Source of the DNA: Caulobacterales bacterium
Lineage (GTDB): Bacteria > Pseudomonadota > Alphaproteobacteria > Caulobacterales > Caulobacteraceae
NCBI GenBank assembly: GCA_947474395.1
Contig: CANJID010000003.1
Location: 1 to 64,000 of the forward strand
Direction: 5' to 3'
Length of the DNA stretch: 64,000 bases
Below the pieces are notes generated by a model. That model had not been told where the DNA came from. It did not search any database and worked only from the letters and a program-made list of their open reading frames with translations. This document shows, piece after piece, positions 42,121-64,000 of this stretch; position 1 is the first letter of the stretch; every line of letters starts with the position of its first letter. The position numbers were made by a program, and so were the translations under genes.

Positions 42121-42546
42121 TTACTCGGCGGGCGCGGGCGACATGGCCGGGGCGAGTTCCCGGGGCTTGGCCCGCATGGTGAACATGGCCTGGTAGTTCT
42201 TCCAGTAGCTCAGGCAGATGAGCAGGTTGGTGCCGAGCACGACGTAGCCGTGGCCGCCCTTCGAGTGATTGATCACCGCGCCGTAGTAGAAGACGACGAA
42301 CGACACCGGCAGGCCGACCACCATCATGAGCGGGGCGTATATTCCGGTCAGGGCGCTGACCCCGGCCAGCACCTCGATGGCCTTGACCAGGTCGAACAGA
42401 TGGCTGTCGATCAGGGCTATGGTGAAGTCCTTGCTGACCGGGATGCCGCCCAGGGGCTGGGGCCACAGGTAGACGAAGTGGTTCATCCCGTTGGCCACCA
42501 TCCAACTGCCGAAGAGCAGCCGCGAGAACCAGATGAGGTGCTTCAT
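42121..42546 (-). CDS. DoxX-like small membrane protein (third tandem copy)
   Basis: 141 residues from ATG 42546, 8 bases after GAGG. A longer form from GTG 42558 would overlap the previous gene, but alignment with the paralogues supports ATG 42546 (MKHLIWFSRLLFGSWM versus MAYLAWLARLLFGAWM). Four membrane helices are predicted. Shared motifs are NHFVYLWPQPLGG, ALIDSHLFDLVKAIEV and LSYWKNYQAMFTMRAKP. DoxX-fold proteins are quinone- or redox-associated membrane proteins; the role here is unknown. It is co-transcribed with copy 2. Confidence 0.8.
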   Translation of the reverse strand: MKHLIWFSRLLFGSWMVANGMNHFVYLWPQPLGGIPVSKDFTIALIDSHLFDLVKAIEVLAGVSALTGIYAPLMMVVGLPVSFVVFYYGAVINHSKGGHGYVVLGTNLLICLSYWKNYQAMFTMRAKPRELAPAMSPAPAE

Positions 42547-42554
42547 CGCTCGCC

Positions 42555-42983
42555 TCACTCTGCCGGAGCGTGGGACATCGCCGGGGCGAGCTCCCGGGGC
42601 TGGGCCTTGAGCGTGAACATGGCCTTGTAGCTGTTCCAGAAGCCCAGGCAGATGATCAGGTTGGGGCCGAGCACGAAGAGGGCGCCGTGGTGCGTCTTCG
42701 AAAGATCAAGGAACTCGCCGTAGTACCAGACGACGAACGACACCGGCAGGCAGGCGATCGCCCACAGCGGGGCGTAAAGGCCCATCAGGATGCTGAAGCC
42801 GGCGATCACCTCGATCGCCTTGACGGCGATGAACAGGTGACTGTCGATCAGCGCCGCCGTGATCTCCTTGGAGAGGGGATAGCTGCCCATGGGCTGGGGC
42901 CACAGATGGATGAAGTGCATCAGCCCGTTGGTGATCATCCAGGCGCCGAAGAGCAGACGCGCGAGCCACGCAAGGTACGCCAT
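42555..42983 (-). CDS. DoxX-like small membrane protein (second tandem copy)
   Basis: 142 residues from ATG 42983, preceded by AGGGAGG. Four predicted membrane helices, with HFIHLWPQPMGSYPLSKE, ALIDSHLFIAVKAIEVIAGF and LGFWNSYKAMFTLKAQP. It is closely similar to the copies at 42121-42546 and 43113-43553. The 40 bases upstream of its start match those upstream of copy 1 almost perfectly, so the promoter was duplicated with the gene. Its own start codon region then couples to copy 3. Confidence 0.82.
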   Translation of the reverse strand: MAYLAWLARLLFGAWMITNGLMHFIHLWPQPMGSYPLSKEITAALIDSHLFIAVKAIEVIAGFSILMGLYAPLWAIACLPVSFVVWYYGEFLDLSKTHHGALFVLGPNLIICLGFWNSYKAMFTLKAQPRELAPAMSHAPAE

Positions 42984-43038
42984 ACACGCCTCCCTATGTC
43001 CGACAGGCGCATCTGACGCGCGCCTTTAATTAGGCAGG

Positions 43039-43069
43039 TTAGGCGCCACTTGCAGGGATTTGCAAATCC
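43039..43069. promoter_or_regulatory. Candidate operator upstream of DoxX-like copy 2
   Basis: TTAGGCGCC (43039-43047) is followed 19 bases on by the perfect 14-base palindrome GGATTTGCAAATCC (43056-43069). The same two motifs at the same spacing occur upstream of copy 1 (43607-43635), although the DNA between them has diverged. Conservation of motifs against changed surroundings suggests a functional regulator site. Confidence 0.5.
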
Positions 43070-43112
43070 TCAGCCGGCGGGCCGTTCCGTCGCTCGGGAT
43101 TCGAGCAGGCCC

Positions 43113-43553
43113 CTATTCCGCCGGCGCCGCCGGCCTGACCGGCATCAGGCTCCAGCCTTCCGTCCGGGGCTGGGCCCTGAGCGTGAACATCGCCTTGTAG
43201 TTCTTCCAGTAGCCCAGGCAGATGATCAGGTTGCAGACGAATACGATGAGGAGGCCGGTGTGCGTGCGGGAGCCCTCGAGGAACTCGCCGTAGTAGGCGA
43301 CGACGAACGACACCGGCAGGCAGACCAGCATCACCAGCGGCGCGTAGACCCCGGTCAGGATGCTGAACCCGGCGATCACCTCGATCGCCTTGACGCCGAT
43401 GAACAGGTGACTGTCGATCAGGGCGGCCGTGAGCTCCTTGGAGAGCGGCACGCTACCCATGGGCTGGGGCCACAGGTGGATGAAGTGCATGAGGCCGTTG
43501 GAGACCATCCAGGCCCCAAAAAGCAGACGCGCTAACCAGGTGAGGTACGCCAT
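43113..43553 (-). CDS. DoxX-like small membrane protein (first tandem copy)
   Basis: 146 residues from ATG 43553 with AGGGAGG upstream. The core is the same as in the two other copies (HFIHLWPQPMGSVPLSKELT, ALIDSHLFIGVKAIEVIAGF, LGYWKNYKAMFTLRAQP), with a different C-terminal tail (TEGWSLMPVRPAAPAE). Four membrane helices. The final APAE is shared by all three copies. It has its own promoter, duplicated at copy 2. Confidence 0.82.
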   Translation of the reverse strand: MAYLTWLARLLFGAWMVSNGLMHFIHLWPQPMGSVPLSKELTAALIDSHLFIGVKAIEVIAGFSILTGVYAPLVMLVCLPVSFVVAYYGEFLEGSRTHTGLLIVFVCNLIICLGYWKNYKAMFTLRAQPRTEGWSLMPVRPAAPAE

Positions 43554-53754: not shown

Positions 53755-53843
53755 CTGGCCGGCTGAAGCCTTCGCGGTCAGCGAAACCGGCGTCTCCTCT
53801 TTAAGGCTGGGCCGGGCGTCGAAGCTTGCTAGGGTCCCGCCGG

Positions 53844-54182
53844 ATGATCGCCGACCTCGGTCAAGCTCTGGAGCGAACCCACGCCCTCCTGCCCTCGCTG
53901 CGGGAGCGGGCGGCGCGCGCGGAGGCGGAGCGATCCGTCTCCGCAGAGACCATCGCCGCTCTCAGCGAAGCCGAGCTTTTCCGTCTCAATGCGCCGCGCG
54001 CGTTCGGCGGCTCGGAGCTGGGCTTTGCGGCGCATGTGCGCGTGACGGCGGCCCTGGCGTCAGCCTGCGGCTCGACGGGTTGGCTCTACGGCGTCTTCGC
54101 CGGCCACAACTGGATCGTCGGCCTGCTCGAGCAGGCGGCGCAAGTCGAGGTGCTCGCCGATCCGACGATGCTCGCCTCTTCC
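53844..54182 (+). pseudogene. Acyl-CoA dehydrogenase-fold monooxygenase (HsaA-like), N-terminal fragment
   Basis: ATG 53844 follows AGGG. The product opens with LERTHALLPSLRERAARAEA, then VSAETIAALSEAELFRLNAP, then FGGSELGFAAHVRVTAALASACGSTGWLYGVFAGHNW. This is the N-terminal helical domain of flavin-dependent group D monooxygenases such as HsaA. After MLASS (about 54182) the similarity ends and the DNA becomes the antisense of a signal-peptide gene. About 113 of roughly 390 residues remain, without the flavin-binding middle and C-terminal domains. Confidence 0.7.
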
Positions 54183-54184
54183 AT

Positions 54185-54280
54185 GTTCCGGCTCGCCGCC
54201 AGTGCGCTTCCCACAGGCGCGGCCAGCAGGGCGGCGGCGAGAGCGCCGGCGAGGGCGCGTCTGAGGGGCGTGTCGCGCAT
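54185..54280 (-). pseudogene. Exported-protein gene, N-terminal fragment (signal peptide only)
   Basis: From ATG 54280, 9 bases after AAGGA, the leftward frame encodes MRDTPLRRALAGALAAALLA then APVGSALAAS. This is a good Sec signal peptide. It runs straight into the antisense of the HsaA-like fragment and cannot encode its own mature domain. Two 5' gene fragments thus face each other, as at 9165-9175. Confidence 0.5.
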
Positions 54281-54414: not shown

Positions 54415-55641
54415 TCAGTTGGCGACCGCCTCCACCGCGACGCCGTCTGCGATCAGGCGCTGGATTTCGGTCTCGTCGTAGCCCGCGCGACGGAGCACCG
54501 CGGCTGTATGTTGGCCGAGACGGGGAGGGGGCCTGTCGATCCCGGGCCCTCCGTGGGCGAAGACGAAGCCGGCGTTCAGGACGTGGACGTCCTCGTTGGG
54601 CAAGCCAGGAATGTGGACCGGCAGCTTCAGCCCGCGGCTGTCGAGTTGAGGAAGGTCGCACGCCTGGCCCACGGTGCGCACCAGGCCGCAGGGCGCGCCG
54701 GCGCGGCTGAGGATCGCCTCCCATTCGTCCCCCGGCTTGCGGCGGAAGGTCTCGCGGAGCTCCGCGGTCAGGAGGGTCGAATATTCGGGGCGAGTCCGCG
54801 CTTCCAGGGTGGCGAAGCGCGGGTCCTCCTTGAGGTCGAGCCGCTCCATCGCCTTGCACAGGGACTCGAACTGGTTCTGCTGCACCACGCCGAGGGAAAT
54901 CATCGAGCCGTCGGCGGTCTCGAACATGCCGGCCGTCGGCTGGGCGCTGTAACCCGTGTTGCCGGTGCGCGGGGGCGTGCCCCCGGTGACGAGATAGGGC
55001 ACGGCCGCGCCGATCAGCAGCAGCACCGATGCATCCAGCATGGCCACGTCGATGTACTGGCCATCGCCGAACCGCTCGCGCTGCACGGTCGCCGCCAGGA
55101 TCGCGAGCGCCGCCAGGGTGCCGACATAGGTGTCGACCACCGGCACCCCGACGCGGCTCGGCGGATCATCCGGCTCGCCGTTGACGCTCATCATGCCGCT
55201 GGTCGCCTGGACCACATTGTCGATGGCGGGGTAGTCGCGCATGGGCCCGGCCTGGCCGTAGCCGGAGACCGAGCAGTAGATCAGCCGAGGGTTCAGCGCC
55301 TTGCAGGTTTCGTAGTCGAGGCCGAGCTTGGCCATCACGCCGGGGCGGAAGTTTTCCACCAGCACGTCCGCCTTGGCGATCAGCCGGCGGGCGACCTCCA
55401 GCCCGTCGGGGGCCTTCAGGTCGAGGGCGATGGACTCCTTGCCGGCGTTGGCCGCGATGAAGGCGGGGGACATGCCGTCATAGCGTCGGTCGGCCCCGTA
55501 GTTGCGGAACAGGTCCCCGCGGCCGGGGGCCTCGATCTTCACCACCTCGGCGCCCAACATGCGCAGGAAGTGGCTCGCGAACGGGCCCGCCATCACATGG
55601 CTGAAATCGACGACGAGAAGACCGTCAAGCGGTTGCGGCAT
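54415..55641 (-). CDS. CaiB/BaiF-family (class III) CoA-transferase
   Basis: 408 residues from ATG 55641. Family motifs are LLVVDFSHVMAGPFASHFLRMLGAEVVKIE, LIAKADVLVENFRPGVMAKLGLDYE and YCSVSGYGQAGPM. The catalytic Asp lies in GQYIDVAMLDASVLL. Class III CoA-transferases move CoA between carboxylic acids through an Asp-CoA thioester. It is divergent from the TRAP/CoA operon and probably works on the same acid family. A frame extended to 55809 crosses the promoter region and is not used. Confidence 0.9.
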   Translation of the reverse strand: MPQPLDGLLVVDFSHVMAGPFASHFLRMLGAEVVKIEAPGRGDLFRNYGADRRYDGMSPAFIAANAGKESIALDLKAPDGLEVARRLIAKADVLVENFRPGVMAKLGLDYETCKALNPRLIYCSVSGYGQAGPMRDYPAIDNVVQATSGMMSVNGEPDDPPSRVGVPVVDTYVGTLAALAILAATVQRERFGDGQYIDVAMLDASVLLLIGAAVPYLVTGGTPPRTGNTGYSAQPTAGMFETADGSMISLGVVQQNQFESLCKAMERLDLKEDPRFATLEARTRPEYSTLLTAELRETFRRKPGDEWEAILSRAGAPCGLVRTVGQACDLPQLDSRGLKLPVHIPGLPNEDVHVLNAGFVFAHGGPGIDRPPPRLGQHTAAVLRRAGYDETEIQRLIADGVAVEAVAN

Positions 55642-55865: not shown

Positions 55866-56399
55866 ATGGACGAGACTCCTCAGGCCAGTGAAGGCGGGCT
55901 CAATCCCGAACCGACCGCCCCCGGCGGCATGGCGGGGATGTTGCTCAAGGGCTCGTTCATCACCGGCTCCGCCGCTCTGCTGGCGGCCATGTCGACCGAC
56001 TTCGTCGCCGTGATCTGCCGCCACCTGCACGTCTCCTTCATCGGCGCGATCGAGATCATCCAGGCCTGCGTGGTGCTGGCGATCTCGGCCAGCGTGATCG
56101 CGGTCACCCTGACAGGCGGCCATGCGGCGGTCCATCTGGTGACCGAGCGCCTGTCGCCCCGCTGGCAGGGCCGCCTGGCGCGGATATCCTATGGCCTGGG
56201 CTTCCTGGCGTTCGGCGCCCTCGCGGCGGGCGAGGCCTGGCTCTACTACGACACCCACGACTGGGACGAGCGCAGCGACCTGCTGGGCCTGCCGATCTGG
56301 CCCCTGCGGCTGATCTGGACCGTCAGCCTGTCCGTGGCGGCGGTGCTGTTCCTTCTGCGCACTCTGCGCGGCGCTCCGGCCAAGGAAGCGCGGCCATGA
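55866..56399 (+). CDS. TRAP transporter small permease (DctQ-type)
   Basis: 177 residues from ATG 55866. After a 20-residue polar leader there are four predicted membrane helices: FITGSAALLAAMSTDFVAVICR, AIEIIQACVVLAISASVIAVTL, ISYGLGFLAFGALAAGEAWL and LIWTVSLSVAAVLFLLRTL. The segment between helices 2 and 3 (GGHAAVHLVTERLSPRWQ) matches the GxHIxVxxLxxxLP region of DctQ proteins. It anchors the large permease of a periplasmic-binding-protein-dependent, Na+-driven acid importer. The stop overlaps the start of dctM (ATGA). Confidence 0.85.
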   Translation: MDETPQASEGGLNPEPTAPGGMAGMLLKGSFITGSAALLAAMSTDFVAVICRHLHVSFIGAIEIIQACVVLAISASVIAVTLTGGHAAVHLVTERLSPRWQGRLARISYGLGFLAFGALAAGEAWLYYDTHDWDERSDLLGLPIWPLRLIWTVSLSVAAVLFLLRTLRGAPAKEARP

Positions 56400-57700
56400 C
56401 GCCCGGCCTGATCGGCATCCTCGGGGTCCTCCTGCTGTTCGCCATGTTGAGCGGCGGCGTGCCCATCGCCGTCTCCCTGATCCTCGTGGGCCTCGGCGGC
56501 CTGGCGGTGCTGATCTCGCCGGAAGCGGCGGTGATCAAGGCGGCGGTGATCGGGTTCGACATCGCGGGGAAGTATGAGCTCGGGGTCCTGCCCCTATTCC
56601 TCTTGATGGCCCACGTCTGCTTCGCGGCAGGCGCCAGTCGAGACTTCTTCGACGCCGCCGCCAAATTCGTCGGCCACAAACGCGGCGGCCTCGCGCTCGC
56701 CTCCATCGCCGCCTGCGGCGGCTTCGGGGCGATCAGCGGCTCCAGCCTGGCCACCGTCGCCACCATCGGCCTCGTCGCCTACCCCGAGATGCGCAAGCAC
56801 GGCTATTCGCCGGCCCTGGCGACGGGCGCCGTGACCGCGGGGGGAAGCATCGGCTCGCTGGTGCCGCCGAGCGCGGCCCTGATCGTGTTCGGCATCCTCA
56901 CCGAGCAGTCCATCGGCAAGCTCTTCACCGCCGCCATCATCCCGGCCACGACCCAGGGCCTGTTCTACATGGCGGTCATCGCCATCCTGTGCGCCTTCAA
57001 GCCATCGCTCGGCCCCGGCCTGCCCCGCGCGCCCTGGCGCGAGCGCTTCGCCTCCCTCGTCCGCCTGTGGGACGTGACCCTGCTGATCTCGGTGGTGATC
57101 GGCGGCATAGCGGTCGGCTGGTTCTCGCCGACCGAGGCGGCCTCGGTGGGCGGGGTCGGCGCCCTGCTGCTCTGCGCCCGGCGCAAGCAGCTCTCCGTTC
57201 CCATGCTGCGCAAGGCCCTGACCAGCACGCTTCGAACCACGGGCATGATCTACGCCATCGTCATCGGCGCGATCACCTTCTCCGCCTTCATCGCCGCCAC
57301 CGGGGTCGCAGCCTCCCTGGCGGACGCCGTGGCCGGCGCCCACGCCGACAAGCTGACAGTGACCCTCGCCATCGTCGGGGTGGTGCTGGCGCTGGGCATG
57401 TTCCTGGACGGCCTCGCCCTGATGACCCTAACCGTGCCGATCTTCCTGCCGATCGTCACCCACGTCGGGATCGATCCGATCTTCTTCGGCATCCTCCTGG
57501 TGCGGGCCATGGAGATCGGCTTCGTGCACCCGCCGGTGGGGATGAACGTCTACGTCATGCACTCCATCGCCAAGGACGTGCCCCTGATGACCATCTTCAA
57601 GGGGGTGGTGCCGTTCCTGATCTCCGACCTCCTGCACGTCGCCCTGCTGGTCGCGGTTCCCGGCATGGCGCTCTTCCTTCCCAAGCTGCTGGGGGCGTGA
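56396..57700 (+). CDS. TRAP transporter large permease (DctM-type)
   Basis: 434 residues from ATG 56396, overlapping dctQ by four bases. Many membrane helices and DctM motifs are present: GGVPIAVSLILVGLGGLAV, LPLFLLMAHVCFAAGASRDFFDAA, GGFGAISGSSLATVATIG, MRKHGYSPALATGAVTAGGSIGSLVPPSAALIVFG, and the late HPPVGMNVYVMHSIAKDVP. It forms the translocation channel for an organic acid. The cognate DctP is encoded at the other end of the operon (63051 onwards). Confidence 0.92.
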   Translation: MTPGLIGILGVLLLFAMLSGGVPIAVSLILVGLGGLAVLISPEAAVIKAAVIGFDIAGKYELGVLPLFLLMAHVCFAAGASRDFFDAAAKFVGHKRGGLALASIAACGGFGAISGSSLATVATIGLVAYPEMRKHGYSPALATGAVTAGGSIGSLVPPSAALIVFGILTEQSIGKLFTAAIIPATTQGLFYMAVIAILCAFKPSLGPGLPRAPWRERFASLVRLWDVTLLISVVIGGIAVGWFSPTEAASVGGVGALLLCARRKQLSVPMLRKALTSTLRTTGMIYAIVIGAITFSAFIAATGVAASLADAVAGAHADKLTVTLAIVGVVLALGMFLDGLALMTLTVPIFLPIVTHVGIDPIFFGILLVRAMEIGFVHPPVGMNVYVMHSIAKDVPLMTIFKGVVPFLISDLLHVALLVAVPGMALFLPKLLGA

Positions 57701-57702
57701 TC

Positions 57703-58842
57703 ATGGCCGGGTGGGAAGCCTTGCGAGACGTTTATGCAGCGCCCGACGCCGCGGCCCGGGCGTGGAAGGCGGGGGGAGGGCGGGTCGCCGGCTACCTCGC
57801 CAACACCGCTCCGCGCGAACTGATGGCCGCCGCGGGGTTCTTCCCCCTCCAGCTCTCGGGCGTGGCCGGCGAGCCCACGCCGCTCGCGGACCGCTACATG
57901 GAGGACCTGTTCGACCCCATGGTCCGCTCGGTGTTCCAGCGCCTGCTGGCCGGGCACTACGACTTCCTCGATGTGCTGGTGCTCCCCCGTACCTCGGACT
58001 CCGTGCAACGGCTCTACTACTACCTGTCGGAAATGGACCGGGTGGGGGCGGCGCGCCTGCCTGAGGTGAGGCTCCTGGACCTGCTGCACACGCCCTGGTC
58101 CTCAAGCGCCGCCTATAACCTGGCCCGTATGGGCGAGCTCCGGGCCGCCCTTGAGCGTCTGGGCGGCAAGCCCGTCGCCGACGCCGCTCTCTCGGCCGAG
58201 ATCAAGGCCGCCAACAGCCGCCGGGCGTCCCTGCGCCGCCTCGCCGAGGCCCGCAGAACCCGCCCGCCCAGCCGGGGCGCCGAACAGGCCCTGCACGCCT
58301 TTTCCGCCTATCACCACATGGCCGGCGCCGACTTCGACGCCGCCATCGCCGCCGCCCTGCAGGCGCCCCCAGAGGCGTTCCCGGGGGCGCCCCGGGACGG
58401 CCCCCGCCTGGTCCTCAGCGGCAGCCCCCTCGACAATCCGGCCCTGCACCGCCTGGTCGAGAGCCTGGGCGCGGTCGTGGTGGGCGACCACCACCCCTGC
58501 GGCGAGCTGATGATCGGCACGGACGTCGCCGAGGCCGGCGATCCGATGGCCGCCTTGACCGAGCACTATCATCGGGGCGTCGCCTCCAGCCGCACCTTCC
58601 CCAGCCGGCCCGGCGAGCTGGTCGACTTCGCCCGCGCGGCCGGGGCGGACGGGGTGGTGTTCTACTTCCTAGCCGAGGAGGAGGCCCTGACCTGGGAATA
58701 TCCGGGCCAGAAGCGCGCCCTCGAGGCGGCCGGGATCGCGACCCTGGCCTTCACCATGCAGCCCTACCGCCTCGACGCCGAACCCCTCTCCGGCCCCCTG
58801 ACGGCCTTTATCGACGGCCTTCGGAGCGCCCGCCATGGCTGA
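57703..58842 (+). CDS. 2-hydroxyacyl-CoA dehydratase (HgdB/BcrC)-like subunit, cysteine-poor
   Basis: 379 residues from ATG 57703; GTG 57697 overlaps the dctM stop and is an alternative. The layout matches D-component subunits of 2-hydroxyacyl-CoA dehydratases and benzoyl-CoA reductases: GYLANTAPRELMAAAGFFPLQLSG, VLVLPRTSDSVQRLYYYLSE, GDHHPCGELMIGTD and YPGQKRALEAAGIATLAF. The Cys residues that hold the [4Fe-4S] cluster are mostly replaced. The CD motif is SD, and the late KxCDP position reads FLAEEEALTWEYP. Only one Cys (Cys266) remains. It may serve as a structural partner of the cysteine-retaining relative at 61225-62547. Overlaps the next gene by 8 bases. Confidence 0.72.
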   Translation: MAGWEALRDVYAAPDAAARAWKAGGGRVAGYLANTAPRELMAAAGFFPLQLSGVAGEPTPLADRYMEDLFDPMVRSVFQRLLAGHYDFLDVLVLPRTSDSVQRLYYYLSEMDRVGAARLPEVRLLDLLHTPWSSSAAYNLARMGELRAALERLGGKPVADAALSAEIKAANSRRASLRRLAEARRTRPPSRGAEQALHAFSAYHHMAGADFDAAIAAALQAPPEAFPGAPRDGPRLVLSGSPLDNPALHRLVESLGAVVVGDHHPCGELMIGTDVAEAGDPMAALTEHYHRGVASSRTFPSRPGELVDFARAAGADGVVFYFLAEEEALTWEYPGQKRALEAAGIATLAFTMQPYRLDAEPLSGPLTAFIDGLRSARHG

Positions 58843-61228
58843 GACCCTGCTCAACGGCTTGAGGGTTCTGGAGCTTCCGGGGCTCGGCGGGGCCTGCGGC
58901 GCTTTCCTGGCCAGCCTCGGCGCCGACGTGGTGAAGCTGGAGCCGCCCGAGGGCGAGGCGCAGCGCCGCCTCGCGGACGGCGCGCCGGACCCGGCCTGGA
59001 CGGCGCGGAACCTGCGCAAGCGCAGCGTGGTCGCCGATCTGGAGAGCGCCGCGGGGCGCAAGCTGGCGCAACGCCTGGCCGCGCGCTGCGATGTCCTGAT
59101 CGAGTCGCTGACGGAAACGAGAGCCAAGGACGTTGGCCTCGACCCGGCCGCCCTGTCGGCTCTCAATCCCCGCCTCGTGCAGGTCTCCATCACCCCCTTC
59201 GGCCGCACCGGGCCTTACGCCGACAATGCGGCGGGGGAACTGGTGGTCTCGGCCATGGGCGGCGCCTTGTGGACCGTCGGCGACGAGGACCGTCCGCCGG
59301 TCAAGGAGGCGCTCGACGCCTGCGTCTTCCACGCCTGCGCCGTCGCCGGCACGGGCGCCATGTTCGCCTGTTTCGAGCGCGAGGCGAGCGGCCTCGGCCA
59401 GCTGGTCGAGGTCTCGGCCCAGCAGGTCGCCGCCAGCCGCGCCACCAGCGGCCTACTCGCCTGGCAGTTCGACCAGCGGATCCTGAAGCGCACGGGGGTC
59501 AAGGTCTCCTACGGCACCGCCCAGGTGCGCTACATCTGGACCCTGGCCGACGGCTACTGCTTCCACGGCCTGATGTCGGGCAAGATCGGCGCGCCCGCCA
59601 ACACCGCCCTCAGCGCCTGGATGGACGAGGCCGGCTTCGACAATCCCATGCAGGGCGTGGAGTGGGAGCGCTACGACCGGGGCTCCCTGCCGGCGGACAC
59701 GCGCCTGGTCTGGGAGGCGGCCATCGACCGCTTCTTCCGCAGCCGCACCCGCGCCGACATCTCAGGTGAAGGACGGCGGCGGGGGATCAACGCCACCGTG
59801 GCCGCCGAGCCCGCCGACGTCCTGGCCGACCCGCACCTGGCCGCCCGCGCCTTCTTCGAGGAGACCGCCGACGGCCTGAAGGCGCCCGCCCGCTTCGTCC
59901 GCCTGGCGGGGCTCGAGCCGCCGCCGCTCACCCCCGCGCCGGCGGTGGGGGAGGGGAGCGAGGCGGTCTTACGCGACTGGTCCGCGCTTCCGCCCGCCAA
60001 GGTCCCGCCCTCGCCGCGCAGCACGCCGCCTCTGGCGGGCGTGAAGGTGCTCGACTTCTCCTGGGCCCTGGTGGGTTCGATCACCACCAAGATCCTGGCC
60101 GACTTCGGCGCCGAGGTGGTCAAGGTCGAGTCCTCGACCCGGCCCTGCCTCAGCCGCATCGACGTGCAGGTCTCCGCGTCGAAGCGCGGGGAGTTCGACG
60201 ACAAGCCCTGGTTCGCCCACCTCAACAGCTCCAAGCGGAGCCTGCGCCTGAACATGAAGCGCCCCGGCTGGCGCGACGTGATCGATCCCCTGGTCGAATG
60301 GGCCGACGTGGTGGTGGAGAACTTCTCCCCCGGAACCATGAAGTCCCTGGGCCTCGACTACGAGAGCCTGTCGGCCCGCCGCCCCGACCTCGTCATGGTC
60401 TCGGGCAGCGTCTTCGGCCAGACGGGGCCCCTGGCCCGCGAGTGGGGCGTGGACGGCACGGGGGCCGCGCTCTCCGGCCGCCTCTTCCTCAGCGGCTGGC
60501 CTGACCGCCCGCCGCTCAATCCCAGCTCGACGCCCTACGGGGACGTGATCCTGCCGCCGATGATGGCCGCCGCAGCCGCCGCAGCCCTGGCCCGCCGCAA
60601 CCGCACGGGCCTTGGCCTGCACATAGACGCCAGCATGTACGAGGCCTGCGTGCAGCAGATGGCCGGAGCCATCGCCCGGGCCCAGCTCGGCGCCGCACCG
60701 CGCCGCGCCGGCAACCGCGACCCGGGCGTCCTGCACCAGGGGGTCTATCCCGCCGAGGGCGAGGAGCGCTGGATCGCCGTCACCTTCGAGGACGCCGCCG
60801 CCTGGACACGCTTCGCGGCGCTGGCCGCCGGCACGCAATGGCCGCGGGCGAGCGACATAGCCGGCGCGGACGGCGCGGCCCTGGACAGCCTCGACGCCGC
60901 GATCGGCCAATGGACCGCCGGCTTCGAGCGCTTTGAGCTGATGCGCCGACTTCAGGGCGCGGGCATCGCCGCCGGGGTGGTGCAGGACCCCTCCGATATG
61001 GTCGAGCGCGACCCGCAGCTCCGCGCGCGGGACTTCCTGGTGACCGTTGACCACCCCCTGCTGGGCGCCTTCGAGCACCAGGCCACGCCGCTTTGCCTGT
61101 CGCGCACCCCTTCGCGCATGGCGCCGGCGCCCCGCCTCGGCCAACACACCGAGGCGATCGTGCGGGAGATCTGCGCCATGCCCGAGGCGGCCTTCGCCGA
61201 GCTCCAGAGTTCAGGATTGTTCGAATGA
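58835..61228 (+). CDS. Fused double CaiB/BaiF-family CoA-transferase
   Basis: 797 residues: two class III CoA-transferase domains in one chain, residues about 5-385 and 410-790. Domain 1 starts LRVLELPGLGGACGAFLASLGADVVKLE. Domain 2 starts VKVLDFSWALVGSITTKILADFGAEVVKVE. At the catalytic-Asp position domain 1 has Gln (LVEVSAQQVAAS) and domain 2 has Glu (HIDASMYEACVQ). Glu occurs in some family members, whereas Gln makes domain 1 an unlikely transferase by itself. Fused enzymes of this kind act on unusual acids. It overlaps the preceding gene by 8 bases and the next by 4. Confidence 0.85.
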   Translation: MAETLLNGLRVLELPGLGGACGAFLASLGADVVKLEPPEGEAQRRLADGAPDPAWTARNLRKRSVVADLESAAGRKLAQRLAARCDVLIESLTETRAKDVGLDPAALSALNPRLVQVSITPFGRTGPYADNAAGELVVSAMGGALWTVGDEDRPPVKEALDACVFHACAVAGTGAMFACFEREASGLGQLVEVSAQQVAASRATSGLLAWQFDQRILKRTGVKVSYGTAQVRYIWTLADGYCFHGLMSGKIGAPANTALSAWMDEAGFDNPMQGVEWERYDRGSLPADTRLVWEAAIDRFFRSRTRADISGEGRRRGINATVAAEPADVLADPHLAARAFFEETADGLKAPARFVRLAGLEPPPLTPAPAVGEGSEAVLRDWSALPPAKVPPSPRSTPPLAGVKVLDFSWALVGSITTKILADFGAEVVKVESSTRPCLSRIDVQVSASKRGEFDDKPWFAHLNSSKRSLRLNMKRPGWRDVIDPLVEWADVVVENFSPGTMKSLGLDYESLSARRPDLVMVSGSVFGQTGPLAREWGVDGTGAALSGRLFLSGWPDRPPLNPSSTPYGDVILPPMMAAAAAAALARRNRTGLGLHIDASMYEACVQQMAGAIARAQLGAAPRRAGNRDPGVLHQGVYPAEGEERWIAVTFEDAAAWTRFAALAAGTQWPRASDIAGADGAALDSLDAAIGQWTAGFERFELMRRLQGAGIAAGVVQDPSDMVERDPQLRARDFLVTVDHPLLGAFEHQATPLCLSRTPSRMAPAPRLGQHTEAIVREICAMPEAAFAELQSSGLFE

Positions 61229-62547
61229 GCCAGGCCACAGTCACCCGCACCGGGGAGCGCAGCACCAAGCTCCTGCGCTCGACCGCCGAAGCCAACGCCT
61301 TCCAGAAGGCCTTCATCCAGACCCTGCGCGAGAAGGTGATCGAGAACGGCGAGCCCTTCGCCATCGCCCAGGCCGACACCCCGCACGAAATCTTCCACGC
61401 CATGGACATCGCCCTGGTGACCAACCAGTGGTGGGCGGCCTACATCGCCGCCAAGCAGCTCTCGCCCTACTATTTCGAGGTGATGGAACGGGAGGGCTTT
61501 CCGGCCTCCAGCTGCCGCTACTGTTCGCTGGGCCTGGCCTGCACCCTGGACAACGATCCCTCCAAGGCGCCCTGGGGCGGGCTGCCCAAGCCGGTGGTGC
61601 TGGTGGCGCGCCTGACCTGTGATTGCATCCAGCGGGTGTTCGCCCTGTGGGCGGAGGCCCTCGGCTCGCGGTTCTACGCCCTCGAGGCGCCCGGCTGGGA
61701 GCACAAGGACCCCCGCTGGTTCGAGCACAACGACACCGACTGGGAGGAGGTCTACGGCTCCCAGCGCATCGACCTGATGGTCGAGGAGATGAAGGGCCTG
61801 ATCGCGCTCCTGGAGGAGGAAACCGGGCGAACCTTCGAGCGCGATCACTTCGTCGCCCTGATGGAGCGGATCAACGAGCAGGAGGAGCTTCTGAAGGAGG
61901 CCTCCAACCTCGTTACTCGCACGCGGCCCTGTCCGGTGGGCATCGCCGAGCAGATGCCGAACGTGATGATCCCGCAGTGGCACCGGGGCTCGGAGTGGGC
62001 GGTCGAGCACGCCCGCCGCTTCCGCGACGAGGTGAAGGCGCGAGTAGACGCGGGTCTCGGCACGGTGCCGAACGAGAAAATCCGCCTGATGTGGATCGGC
62101 GCGGGCCTCTGGCACGACCCAGGCTTCTACAACGCCCTGGAGGAGCGCCACGGGGCGGTGTTCGCCTGGTCAATGTACCTGCCGTTCGCCGGAGCCAACT
62201 ACATCCGCTACGATCTTTCCGATCCCTTGCGGGCCCTGGCCAGTCGCATCTGCAGCATGAACGAGGTGCTTCACCTGCCACCCTGGATGAACACCTGGAT
62301 GGTCTCGGAGGCCAAGGCCTGCGAGATCGACGCGGTGATCATGCTGACGCCGCGGACCAACCGGCTGTCGGTCAGCGGGACCAAGCTGACCCGCGAGGCG
62401 TTGGAGGCGGCGGGGGTGCCCGTGTTCGAAATGAGCGCCGACATGGTCGACGCCACCAACTGGAGCCACGATGGAATGGTGGACGCCGTTTCCACCTTCC
62501 TAACCGAACGGGTCGAGTCTCGCCTCGATCCCGCTCAAGTCCGTTAG
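61225..62547 (+). CDS. 2-hydroxyacyl-CoA dehydratase (HgdB/BcrC)-like subunit, cysteine-retaining
   Basis: 440 residues from ATG 61225 (ATGA overlap with the CoA-transferase). It has Cys97, Cys100 and Cys106 (SSCRYCSLGLACTLDN), then Cys132 and Cys134 (RLTCDCIQRVFALWAEALG), which correspond to cluster-binding positions of the family. The C-terminal half has the typical KACEIDAVIMLTP and FEMSADMVDATNWSHDGMVDAVSTFL, although the CDxR cysteine is Val here. With the cysteine-poor relative at 57703-58842 it would form a heterodimer. No ATP-dependent activator (HgdC/BadF type) is in the window. The family usually works anaerobically, which is odd among aerobic-looking genes. Confidence 0.75.
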   Translation: MSQATVTRTGERSTKLLRSTAEANAFQKAFIQTLREKVIENGEPFAIAQADTPHEIFHAMDIALVTNQWWAAYIAAKQLSPYYFEVMEREGFPASSCRYCSLGLACTLDNDPSKAPWGGLPKPVVLVARLTCDCIQRVFALWAEALGSRFYALEAPGWEHKDPRWFEHNDTDWEEVYGSQRIDLMVEEMKGLIALLEEETGRTFERDHFVALMERINEQEELLKEASNLVTRTRPCPVGIAEQMPNVMIPQWHRGSEWAVEHARRFRDEVKARVDAGLGTVPNEKIRLMWIGAGLWHDPGFYNALEERHGAVFAWSMYLPFAGANYIRYDLSDPLRALASRICSMNEVLHLPPWMNTWMVSEAKACEIDAVIMLTPRTNRLSVSGTKLTREALEAAGVPVFEMSADMVDATNWSHDGMVDAVSTFLTERVESRLDPAQVR

Positions 62548-62557
62548 GAGTACGCCT

Positions 62558-63064
62558 ATGTCCCCGAGATCGTCCGTCGCGCGCCGCGCCTCGTCCGCCG
62601 GCTCCACGGCTCCTGAGAGCGTCGACCTCGGCGTCCTGAAGGATATGCTGGGCTTTCGCCTGAGGCGGATCCAGAACCACCTGTCGAAGAACTTCGCCGA
62701 ACGGCTCGCCGGCCGGGACATCAAGCCGGGGGAGTTCAGCGCCCTCGCCCTGATCGCGGCCAATCCGGGGATATCGCAGATCCAGCTCGCCACCGAGGGG
62801 GGCTTCGACAAGGCCGCCCTGGTGGTGCTGCTCGACGACCTGGAGCGCTGGGGCTGGGCGGTGCGCCGCCGCTCCACCGCGGACCGCCGGCGCCACGCCC
62901 TGGAGATCACGCCCAAGGGGGAGAAGGCCCTGGCCGAGCTGTTCGCGATCGGCCTGGCCAACGAGGCGACCGTCACCGACGCCCTTGCGGAGGAGGAGCT
63001 GGCCAATCTCTACGCCGTCCTCGACCGCATCTACGGCCTGTGCTTCAGCGATGACCAGGCCTGA
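62558..63064 (+). CDS. MarR-family transcriptional regulator
   Basis: 168 residues from ATG 62558, preceded by TAGGAG. The DNA-binding part is LALIAANPGISQIQLATEGGFDKAALVVLLDDLERWGWAVRRRSTADRRRHALEITPKG. It is a close paralogue of the regulator at 5633-6157. It lies inside the TRAP/CoA operon, 10 bases after the dehydratase-like gene, and its end overlaps the DctP gene by 14 bases. It probably controls this operon through the palindrome at 55781-55800, responding to the transported acid or its CoA ester. Confidence 0.9.
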   Translation: MSPRSSVARRASSAGSTAPESVDLGVLKDMLGFRLRRIQNHLSKNFAERLAGRDIKPGEFSALALIAANPGISQIQLATEGGFDKAALVVLLDDLERWGWAVRRRSTADRRRHALEITPKGEKALAELFAIGLANEATVTDALAEEELANLYAVLDRIYGLCFSDDQA

Positions 63065-64000
63065 CCGCAGAGCCTGGCGCGCCGCCGGCTTAAGCCTCCT
63101 GGTCCTCGGCGCGGCGGCGCTGGCGTCGATGGGCGCGGCCTTCGCGGCCGCCGGTCCGGCGAAGCCCATCGTCCTGCGCTATGCCTCGCCCTATCCGCCG
63201 GGCCATCCCTTCAGCCGCGCCGACATCGCCTGGATGAAGCGGGTGGAGGGCCTGTCGGGCGGCCGGCTGAAGGTCCAGCCCTTCTGGGGCGGCACCCTCA
63301 TCTCGAGCGACAGCGCCATACTGGAGCTGCGCCACGGGGTGGCCGACATCGCCCTGATCACCCCGATCTACATGCGCGGCGGGGCCCAGGCGATCAAGCT
63401 GCAGGCCGGCTTCTACGCCGGTGCGCGCACGCCCATCGAGCAGGTGGCCGTCTATCGCTGCCTGCAGCGAGACTTTCCGGTCCTGCGCCAGGAAGTGGAG
63501 GGGGTCAGGGTGCTGGCCATCCAGGGCGGCAACCTGCCCAACATCCTCACCCGCGACCGCCCGGTCACCAAGCTTTCCGATCTCAAGGGCCTGCGCCTGC
63601 GCACCCCCACAGAGATCGCCCCCGCGCTGCGTAACCTCGGCGCCGATCCCGTCACCATGTCGATGGCGGAGGTCTATTCGGCCCTCTCGAAGGGCGTGGT
63701 CGATGGGGTGGTGGCGCCTGCCGACACCATCCGCTCGCTGCACTTCTCGGAGGTGACGCGCTACCTCGGCACGATCGAGGTCGCGCGCGGGGCCTATCCG
63801 TCCCGGGCCATTTCGGGGCGGTCCTGGGATCGCCTGCCGCCCGACCTGCAGAAAATCCTGGCCGACAGCCAGCCCTACTGGGAGGCCCAGCTCAGCGAGC
63901 TCGTGCTCAAGGCGGAAGCTGAGGGGATCGAGTTCGGCAAGGCCAACGGCATCAAGACCGTCATCTTCGATCCGGCCGACCAGCAGCGCTTCAATGCTCT
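63051..64000 (+). CDS. TRAP transporter substrate-binding protein (DctP-type), C-terminus beyond window
   Basis: ATG 63051 lies inside the end of the MarR gene. The frame stays open to the window edge, so at least 316 residues are encoded and the C-terminus is missing. A signal peptide (RAAGLSLLVLGAAALASMGAAFAAA) is followed by IVLRYASPYPPGHPFSRADI and the segment GGRLKVQPFWGGTLISSDSAILELRHGVADIALI. The DctP ligand-anchoring region is DLKGLRLRTPTEIAPALRNLGADPVTMSMAEVYSALSKGVVDG, with the conserved Arg in LRLRTP. It captures an organic acid in the periplasm for DctQM encoded at the operon start. Confidence 0.88.
   Translation, partial: MTRPDRRAWRAAGLSLLVLGAAALASMGAAFAAAGPAKPIVLRYASPYPPGHPFSRADIAWMKRVEGLSGGRLKVQPFWGGTLISSDSAILELRHGVADIALITPIYMRGGAQAIKLQAGFYAGARTPIEQVAVYRCLQRDFPVLRQEVEGVRVLAIQGGNLPNILTRDRPVTKLSDLKGLRLRTPTEIAPALRNLGADPVTMSMAEVYSALSKGVVDGVVAPADTIRSLHFSEVTRYLGTIEVARGAYPSRAISGRSWDRLPPDLQKILADSQPYWEAQLSELVLKAEAEGIEFGKANGIKTVIFDPADQQRFNA

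Follow-up and report, generated by a model that had tools for sequence, protein, structure and literature searches.

Introduction

Benzoyl-CoA reductases (BCR) and 2-hydroxyacyl-CoA dehydratases (HAD) are textbook enzymes of anaerobic radical chemistry, which is difficult and costs ATP. Here, two subunits of this fold, termed A and B, were analyzed in an operon of a Caulobacterales bacterium (GenBank assembly GCA_947474395.1). The operon lies at the end of a 64,000-nucleotide stretch (contig CANJID010000003.1, positions 1 to 64,000 of the forward strand; hereafter the window) and belongs to a conserved, co-functional gene module that is undescribed within the open-access literature. Among described systems, class I benzoyl-CoA reductase BzdNO/MbdNO (PMC11971306; PDB 8s02, 9g87) is a heterodimer of two HGD-D-fold subunits acting on an aromatic CoA ester. 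In BzdO, Cys95, Cys128 and Cys380 ligate the catalytic [4Fe-4S] cluster, and Glu65 and His131 serve in acid/base catalysis (PMC11971306). The same fold, in operons that set a CoA-transferase beside an HGD-D pair, is found in the HadBC ((R)-2-hydroxyisocaproyl-CoA) and FldBC (phenyllactyl-CoA) dehydratases with the class III CoA-transferases HadA/FldA and the activators HadI/FldI. Two further gene products at the locus were compared with BbsEF (PDB 9fn0) and with MslH, a metal-dependent C-alpha epimerase of a lasso peptide with a PGA_cap fold (PMC10406935).

Organization of the locus

The genes at the host locus are as follows.

54415-55641, minus strand: CoAT3, class III CoA-transferase (SUGCT/formyl-CoA-transferase-like), divergent from the operon
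55866-56399, plus strand: dctQ, small permease of a tripartite ATP-independent periplasmic (TRAP) transporter (PF04290)
56396-57700, plus strand: dctM, TRAP large permease (PF06808; TIGR00786 above cut-off)
57703-58842, plus strand: A subunit, 379 aa, BzdN/HadC-side HGD-D fold (PF06050)
58835-61228, plus strand: CoAT1/2, fused double class III CoA-transferase, 797 aa, BbsE-like N half and BbsF-like C half (two PF02515 stretches)
61225-62547, plus strand: B subunit, 440 aa, BzdO/MbdO/HadB-side HGD-D fold (PF06050)
62558-63064, plus strand: marR regulator (PF12802/PF01047; NCBIfam Saro_0803 family 82 bits, below cut-off)
63051-64121 on the contig, plus strand, past the window end at 64000: dctP, TRAP solute-binding protein (PF03480, PDB matches)
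C3:64126-65250, outside the window: CapA-like gene, CapA/MslH fold (PF09587)

The seven genes from dctQ to dctP are separated by overlaps of 4, 8, 4 and 14 bases and gaps of 2 and 10 bases, a spacing indicative of one transcript, and the CapA-like gene, which starts 4 bases 3' of dctP, belongs to the same operon. With DctP, DctQ and DctM the TRAP gene set is complete (Pfam). The original prediction had given the seven plus-strand genes in this order and with this tight spacing, and both coordinates and Pfam matches for every family agreed with it; it had overlooked CoAT3, and beyond the window the system also includes the CapA/MslH-fold gene. The functions it had proposed, TRAP uptake, a class III CoA-transferase and an HgdB/BcrC-fold pair, were supported by Pfam and Foldseek.

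Fold, iron-sulfur ligands and activator

Four features that define BCR/HAD enzymes were compared with A and B. The HGD-D fold in two paralogous subunits is present: both proteins match PF06050, and they are the only two PF06050 genes of the host genome. AlphaFold2 models were confident (predicted local distance difference test 95.2 for A and 90.5 for B), and Foldseek placed A nearest to BzdN (template modelling score, TM, 0.89) and HadC, and B nearest to MbdO (TM 0.80), BzdO and HadB (TM range 0.74-0.80). Against the B profile, members of the B family scored 413-765 bits, compared with 104 bits or less for canonical catalytic subunits. In a maximum-likelihood tree the B family forms a separate group (support 100/100, branch length 5.5); the canonical rows sit on long branches, and the order among them should not be relied on.

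The three-Cys active-site [4Fe-4S] site of the catalytic subunit is incomplete in host B. By profile alignment, BzdO Cys95, Cys128, Cys380, Glu65 and His131 correspond to C97, C132, N379, Q68 and I135, so that the third cluster ligand is lost and the catalytic Glu is replaced. Canonical catalytic subunits (a comparison set of seven sequences from three carrier genomes) carry the Cys-Cys-Cys triad and Glu at position 68 in 7/7 cases. Among 64 sequences of the B family, the triad (97/132/379) is complete in 3, reduced to two Cys in 32 and absent in 29; nearly all of the 64 have Gln at position 68. Two triad Cys, C97 and C132, are accompanied by C100, C106 and C134 in 31 of the 64 (the host clade); one further sequence has only C97/C132.

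The Cys of the partner-subunit 4Fe-4S or 8Fe-9S cluster are likewise replaced in A. All 7 canonical sequences have Cys at positions 71, 98 and 326, and 6 of the 7 also at position 295; host A has D71, S98, S295 and E326. None of the 58 rows of the A family has all four Cys, 3 have any, and position 326 is Asp or Glu in 58/58. The host genome, which is 99.65% complete, contains no PF01869 activator ATPase (BcrAD/HgdC family); PF01869 matches are likewise missing from 15 of 36 other carriers, and no activator homologue was detected within any of the module loci, with a working positive control.

A and B are therefore of BCR/HAD fold descent, with three of the four tested defining features lacking, and should not be named 2-hydroxyacyl-CoA dehydratase. 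The original prediction had called the pair dehydratase-like, which stands for fold and ancestry and falls for the chemistry, since the iron-sulfur ligands are lost; its statement that no radical-generating ATPase was visible extends beyond the window to the whole host genome. The lost ligands and absent activator make an ATP-dependent radical reaction unlikely, and a redox-neutral reaction is the simplest reading of the sequences.

The rival that takes the same evidence the other way is a working dehydratase of the FldA-FldBC/HadA-HadBC type, for example converting hydroxyphenyllactate to hydroxycinnamoyl-CoA, with an activator supplied from elsewhere or unrecognized and with the extra Cys of host-type B ligating an unusual cluster. 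A class III CoA-transferase beside an HGD-D pair is the arrangement of fld/had operons and is present in the module, the fold matches HadBC, five Cys are conserved in host-type B, and neighboring Ech and Vdh homologues would process hydroxycinnamoyl-CoA further. We regard this rival as doubtful given the PF01869 result in the host and the 15 other carriers, the replacement of the ligand Cys in all but 3 of the A rows, the 29 B proteins that retain no ligand Cys, and the aerobic lineages to which the hosts belong.

Two other ideas were set aside. An HExxHxxD metal site in B (H54, E55, H58, D61) was invariant in 60/60 sequences, but HEIFHAMD had been among the search peptides, and the idea was dropped on finding QExxR or TExxK in four members recovered by another route. 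A link of the module to anaerobic benzoyl-CoA reductase genes was seen in a single genome (G016), a gammaproteobacterial metagenome-assembled genome (MAG) in which a canonical gene cluster of the class I benzoyl-CoA reductase type, including two activator ATPases, lies about 12-30 kb from the A/B module (L098/L099, G016:C101:58000-97999).

Conservation of the module

Relatives of B were sought by one scan of the contigs of one genome per species (the genome set includes duplicate handles, G002 = G841 and G018 = G048). Besides the host, 59 species-level loci encode a B relative with 42-77% identity, from Caulobacterales, Sphingomonadales, Rhodobacterales, Rhizobiales, Steroidobacteraceae, other Gammaproteobacteria, one Betaproteobacterium and two 'Deltaproteobacteria' MAGs. 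Prevalence is low (4/387 Alphaproteobacteria; 6/299 genomes of the host's order). A adjoins B, and TRAP genes are present, in nearly all of the 59, and further genomes also carry the module. The gene order is not due to chance, given that the 59 loci beyond the host's repeat this combination of A, B, CoA-transferases and TRAP genes. Two layouts predominate by lineage: capA-dctQ-dctM-A-CoAT1/2-B-dctP-CoAT3 in Sphingomonadales and relatives, and, in Rhodobacterales, marR/CoAT3 divergent from A-B-CoAT-CoAT-CoAT-dctP-dctQ-dctM.

Few proteins of the module are as well conserved as B, which shows 47-77% identity across classes and 43 invariant columns in 58 sequences. Fused versions of the pair occur in three genomes, as single open reading frames of 788-813 aa (L110 8291-10678, L112 7979-10420, L113 8757-11123), whose N halves score 95-151 bits against the A profile and whose C halves score 413-426 bits against the B profile. 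The B halves of these fusions are Cys-free at the cluster positions and have QExxR instead of HExxH. That A and B act together, as the original prediction had supposed, is borne out by the fusions, and the order it had asked to be searched for was found in Alphaproteobacteria, Gammaproteobacteria and beyond rather than in one genome; nor did the pair prove to be a known characterized enzyme with a different reaction. Its remark that no described pathway has this gene set also held: no published description of the module, or of a pathway with these genes, was found in the open-access literature, and PMC13416013, PMC11705938 and PMC12442348 contained nothing on the module.

Two further genes were noted around the module. 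Seven loci (L012, L013, L014, L016, L020, L021, L028) encode, at most 10 kb from the module, a secreted protein that has CxxCH haem motifs and a length of about 546 aa; its L021 representative has no Pfam match. A cytochrome P450 gene lies directly downstream of the TRAP genes in Rhodobacterales modules (L055-L057, L052, L040, L042).

CoA-transferases and the CapA-like gene

The original prediction had taken the fused protein as the CoA-transferase of the module; the most conserved one is instead the divergent CoAT3, matched in 52/60 loci, mostly with 46-66% identity. CoAT3 is also the sole CoA-transferase remaining in the smallest versions of the module (L050, L052, L055-L057), and on these two counts CoAT3, A and B are likely to be the core. 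Its PDB matches are succinate-HMG (3-hydroxy-3-methylglutarate) CoA-transferase and relatives, with NCBIfam succinate-glutarate CoA-transferase below cut-off. For the fused CoAT1/2, the best PDB match of the C half was 9fn0_B, and that of the N half, among long matches, 9fn0_A (benzylsuccinate CoA-transferase). An Asp occupies the catalytic position in CoAT3 (D170, 47/47) and in both halves of the fused proteins (D570 of the C half, 27/27; D161 of the N half, 25/27), so that by sequence CoAT1/2 has the class III halves related to BbsE/BbsF and the catalytic Asp of a BbsEF-type enzyme. The halves are separate genes in Rhodobacterales. A DddD-type double CoA-transferase (acting on dimethylsulfoniopropionate) was considered and set aside, the halves being closest to BbsE/BbsF and separate in Rhodobacterales. 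Transferring CoA would activate the acid without spending ATP and, by analogy with fld/had operons, could cycle if donor and product were coupled.

Beside CoAT3, positions 53826-54250 (plus strand) match the N-terminal acyl-CoA dehydrogenase domain only (PF02771, 4.5e-8), after which frame or homology is lost; this stretch is probably a truncated acyl-CoA dehydrogenase pseudogene.

For the CapA-like gene, MslH is both the nearest curated model and the nearest solved structure. Counterparts of MslH Glu44, Asn87, His88, Asp91, His259 and the region of His295 were found, with Gly at the position of His261; the score (99 bits against a cut-off of 700) and the incomplete metal/dyad set leave the protein outside the curated NCBIfam family of MslH-type epimerases. 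As a lead only, its product may epimerize or hydrolyze the imported acid.

Neighboring genes and substrate class

Names of neighboring genes are readings of their sequences except where Pfam is given. In different lineages the neighbors include PobA (4-hydroxybenzoate 3-monooxygenase), Vdh-, Ech-, Fcs- and VanA-like genes and Pca genes; Vdh, Ech, VanA or Fcs homologues adjoin the module in nine loci (L005, L007, L018, L020, L027, L031, L033, L111, L116). TonB receptors and secreted S15/CocE-like hydrolases are also among the neighbors. Downstream of the host operon a TonB receptor is flanked by two genes:

L003 8056-9609 (C3:68055-69608), minus strand: tannase/feruloyl-esterase family gene
L003 12579-14243, minus strand: carboxylesterase

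Matches to a PobA-like query were found in 42/44 carrier genomes compared with 76/370 non-carriers of the class sample (Fisher p 1.6e-23), a comparison sample that, for PobA and Ech alike, is unmatched for lineage or lifestyle. Within the class sample alone the counts were 4/4 carriers and 76/370 non-carriers (p 0.002). In 6 genomes the distance from PobA to B is about 10 kb or less, compared with 0.25 expected (p 2.7e-7). Ech was present in 19/44 carriers and in 23/374 genomes of the class sample. The PobA link points to phenolic acids degraded via 4-hydroxybenzoate; candidate substrates are hydroxyphenyllactates, hydroxycinnamate conjugates and hydroxybenzyl-malate, -tartrate or -succinate.

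MmgE/PrpD-like genes in or beside the module in two loci (L050 and L035) keep an alternative alive, namely a module for a non-aromatic di- or tricarboxylic acid (citramalate, itaconate, an alkylsuccinate or a citrate-like acid) with A/B as lyase or dehydratase, the 4-hydroxybenzoate link merely reflecting generalist degraders. The matches of CoAT3 to succinate-HMG/glutarate CoA-transferases and of CoAT1/2 to benzylsuccinate CoA-transferase agree with it, and dicarboxylates are common TRAP cargo. It is nonetheless improbable, as PobA is enriched in both prevalence and distance, Vdh/Ech/VanA neighbors recur, and the MmgE/PrpD-like genes were noticed in those two loci only. That A and B are catalytically dead, or a regulatory or CoA-ester-binding remnant of a lost pathway, would account for the missing cluster ligands and canonical catalytic Glu but is very improbable in view of the strong conservation of B, the A-B fusions, and the finding that no lineage in the set keeps the operon without B, though the loci were found through B.

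Elsewhere in the window, positions 42121-43553 (minus strand) encode two or three tandem paralogous small membrane proteins of about 142-146 aa ('WLARLLFGAWMITNGLMHFIHLWPQPMGS...').

Proposed route

The explanation favored here, to which we give an even chance, is that aerobic proteobacteria use the module to catabolize an aromatic (phenolic) carboxylic acid of plant origin, with a repurposed, redox-neutral A/B pair as the central enzyme. We infer the substrate class, the order of steps and the type of reaction as follows. Release and entry of an ester-bound acid would fall to secreted esterases and a TonB receptor, for which genes often lie next to the module, and the TRAP system would import the freed acid. 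A class III CoA-transferase would place CoA on the acid without ATP, CoAT3 being the core enzyme, joined in most lineages by the BbsEF-like double transferase. The A/B heterodimer, devoid of iron-sulfur electron relay and activator ATPase, would then catalyze a redox-neutral reaction of the acyl-CoA as a lyase, dehydratase or isomerase, with acid-base chemistry in the former cluster/substrate cleft, and its product would enter 4-hydroxybenzoate/protocatechuate catabolism. That the A/B reaction is itself new is plausible. More tentatively, A/B may be the first described HgdB/BcrC-fold acyl-CoA enzyme free of both Fe-S cluster and ATP activation, performing a novel redox-neutral step on a phenylpropanoid-type CoA ester at the center of an aerobic pathway, itself undescribed, that converts plant phenolic esters to 4-hydroxybenzoate.

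Several observations weigh against this explanation. The PobA association may be due in part to lifestyle, genome size and taxonomy, and the host's own PobA is on another contig (C5), away from the module. Ech was absent from all 16 type III (Cys-free B) genomes tested, so that the downstream route is not identical everywhere. Three B proteins (L033-L035) retain the full Cys triad, host-type B may still bind some cluster through its remaining or extra Cys, and PF01869 matches exceeded the cut-off in 16/36 carriers, although sugar kinases belong to that family too.

Comparison with known systems

The module, with its link to the breakdown of 4-hydroxybenzoate/hydroxycinnamate, occurs in Caulobacterales, Sphingomonadales, Rhodobacterales, Steroidobacteraceae and others, where current annotation wrongly suggests a 2-hydroxyacyl-CoA dehydratase. 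In these aerobes the relay-side ligands have been lost, some or all of the catalytic-side ligands are gone, and the activator has disappeared, yet the pair is conserved and even fused: a natural experiment in turning a radical fold to other chemistry. A/B resembles BzdNO/MbdNO in being a heterodimer of two HGD-D-fold subunits and, on the substrate class proposed above, in acting on an aromatic CoA ester. It differs in identity (24% / 21%), in the absence of Fe-S ligands from A and their incomplete set or absence in B, in the change of catalytic Glu65 to Gln, in having no BzdPQ-type ATPase, and in its aerobic lineages. With the had/fld systems the module shares the fold and the operon logic of a CoA-transferase with an HGD-D pair, but it has no activator, has lost the Fe-S ligands, uses another CoA-transferase subfamily, and adds a TRAP importer and a CapA-like gene. 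The product of the latter shares the fold of MslH at a score far below the cut-off. CoAT1/2 resembles a BbsE-BbsF fusion, differing from BbsEF in being one polypeptide in the host and in having no bbs beta-oxidation genes seen around it.

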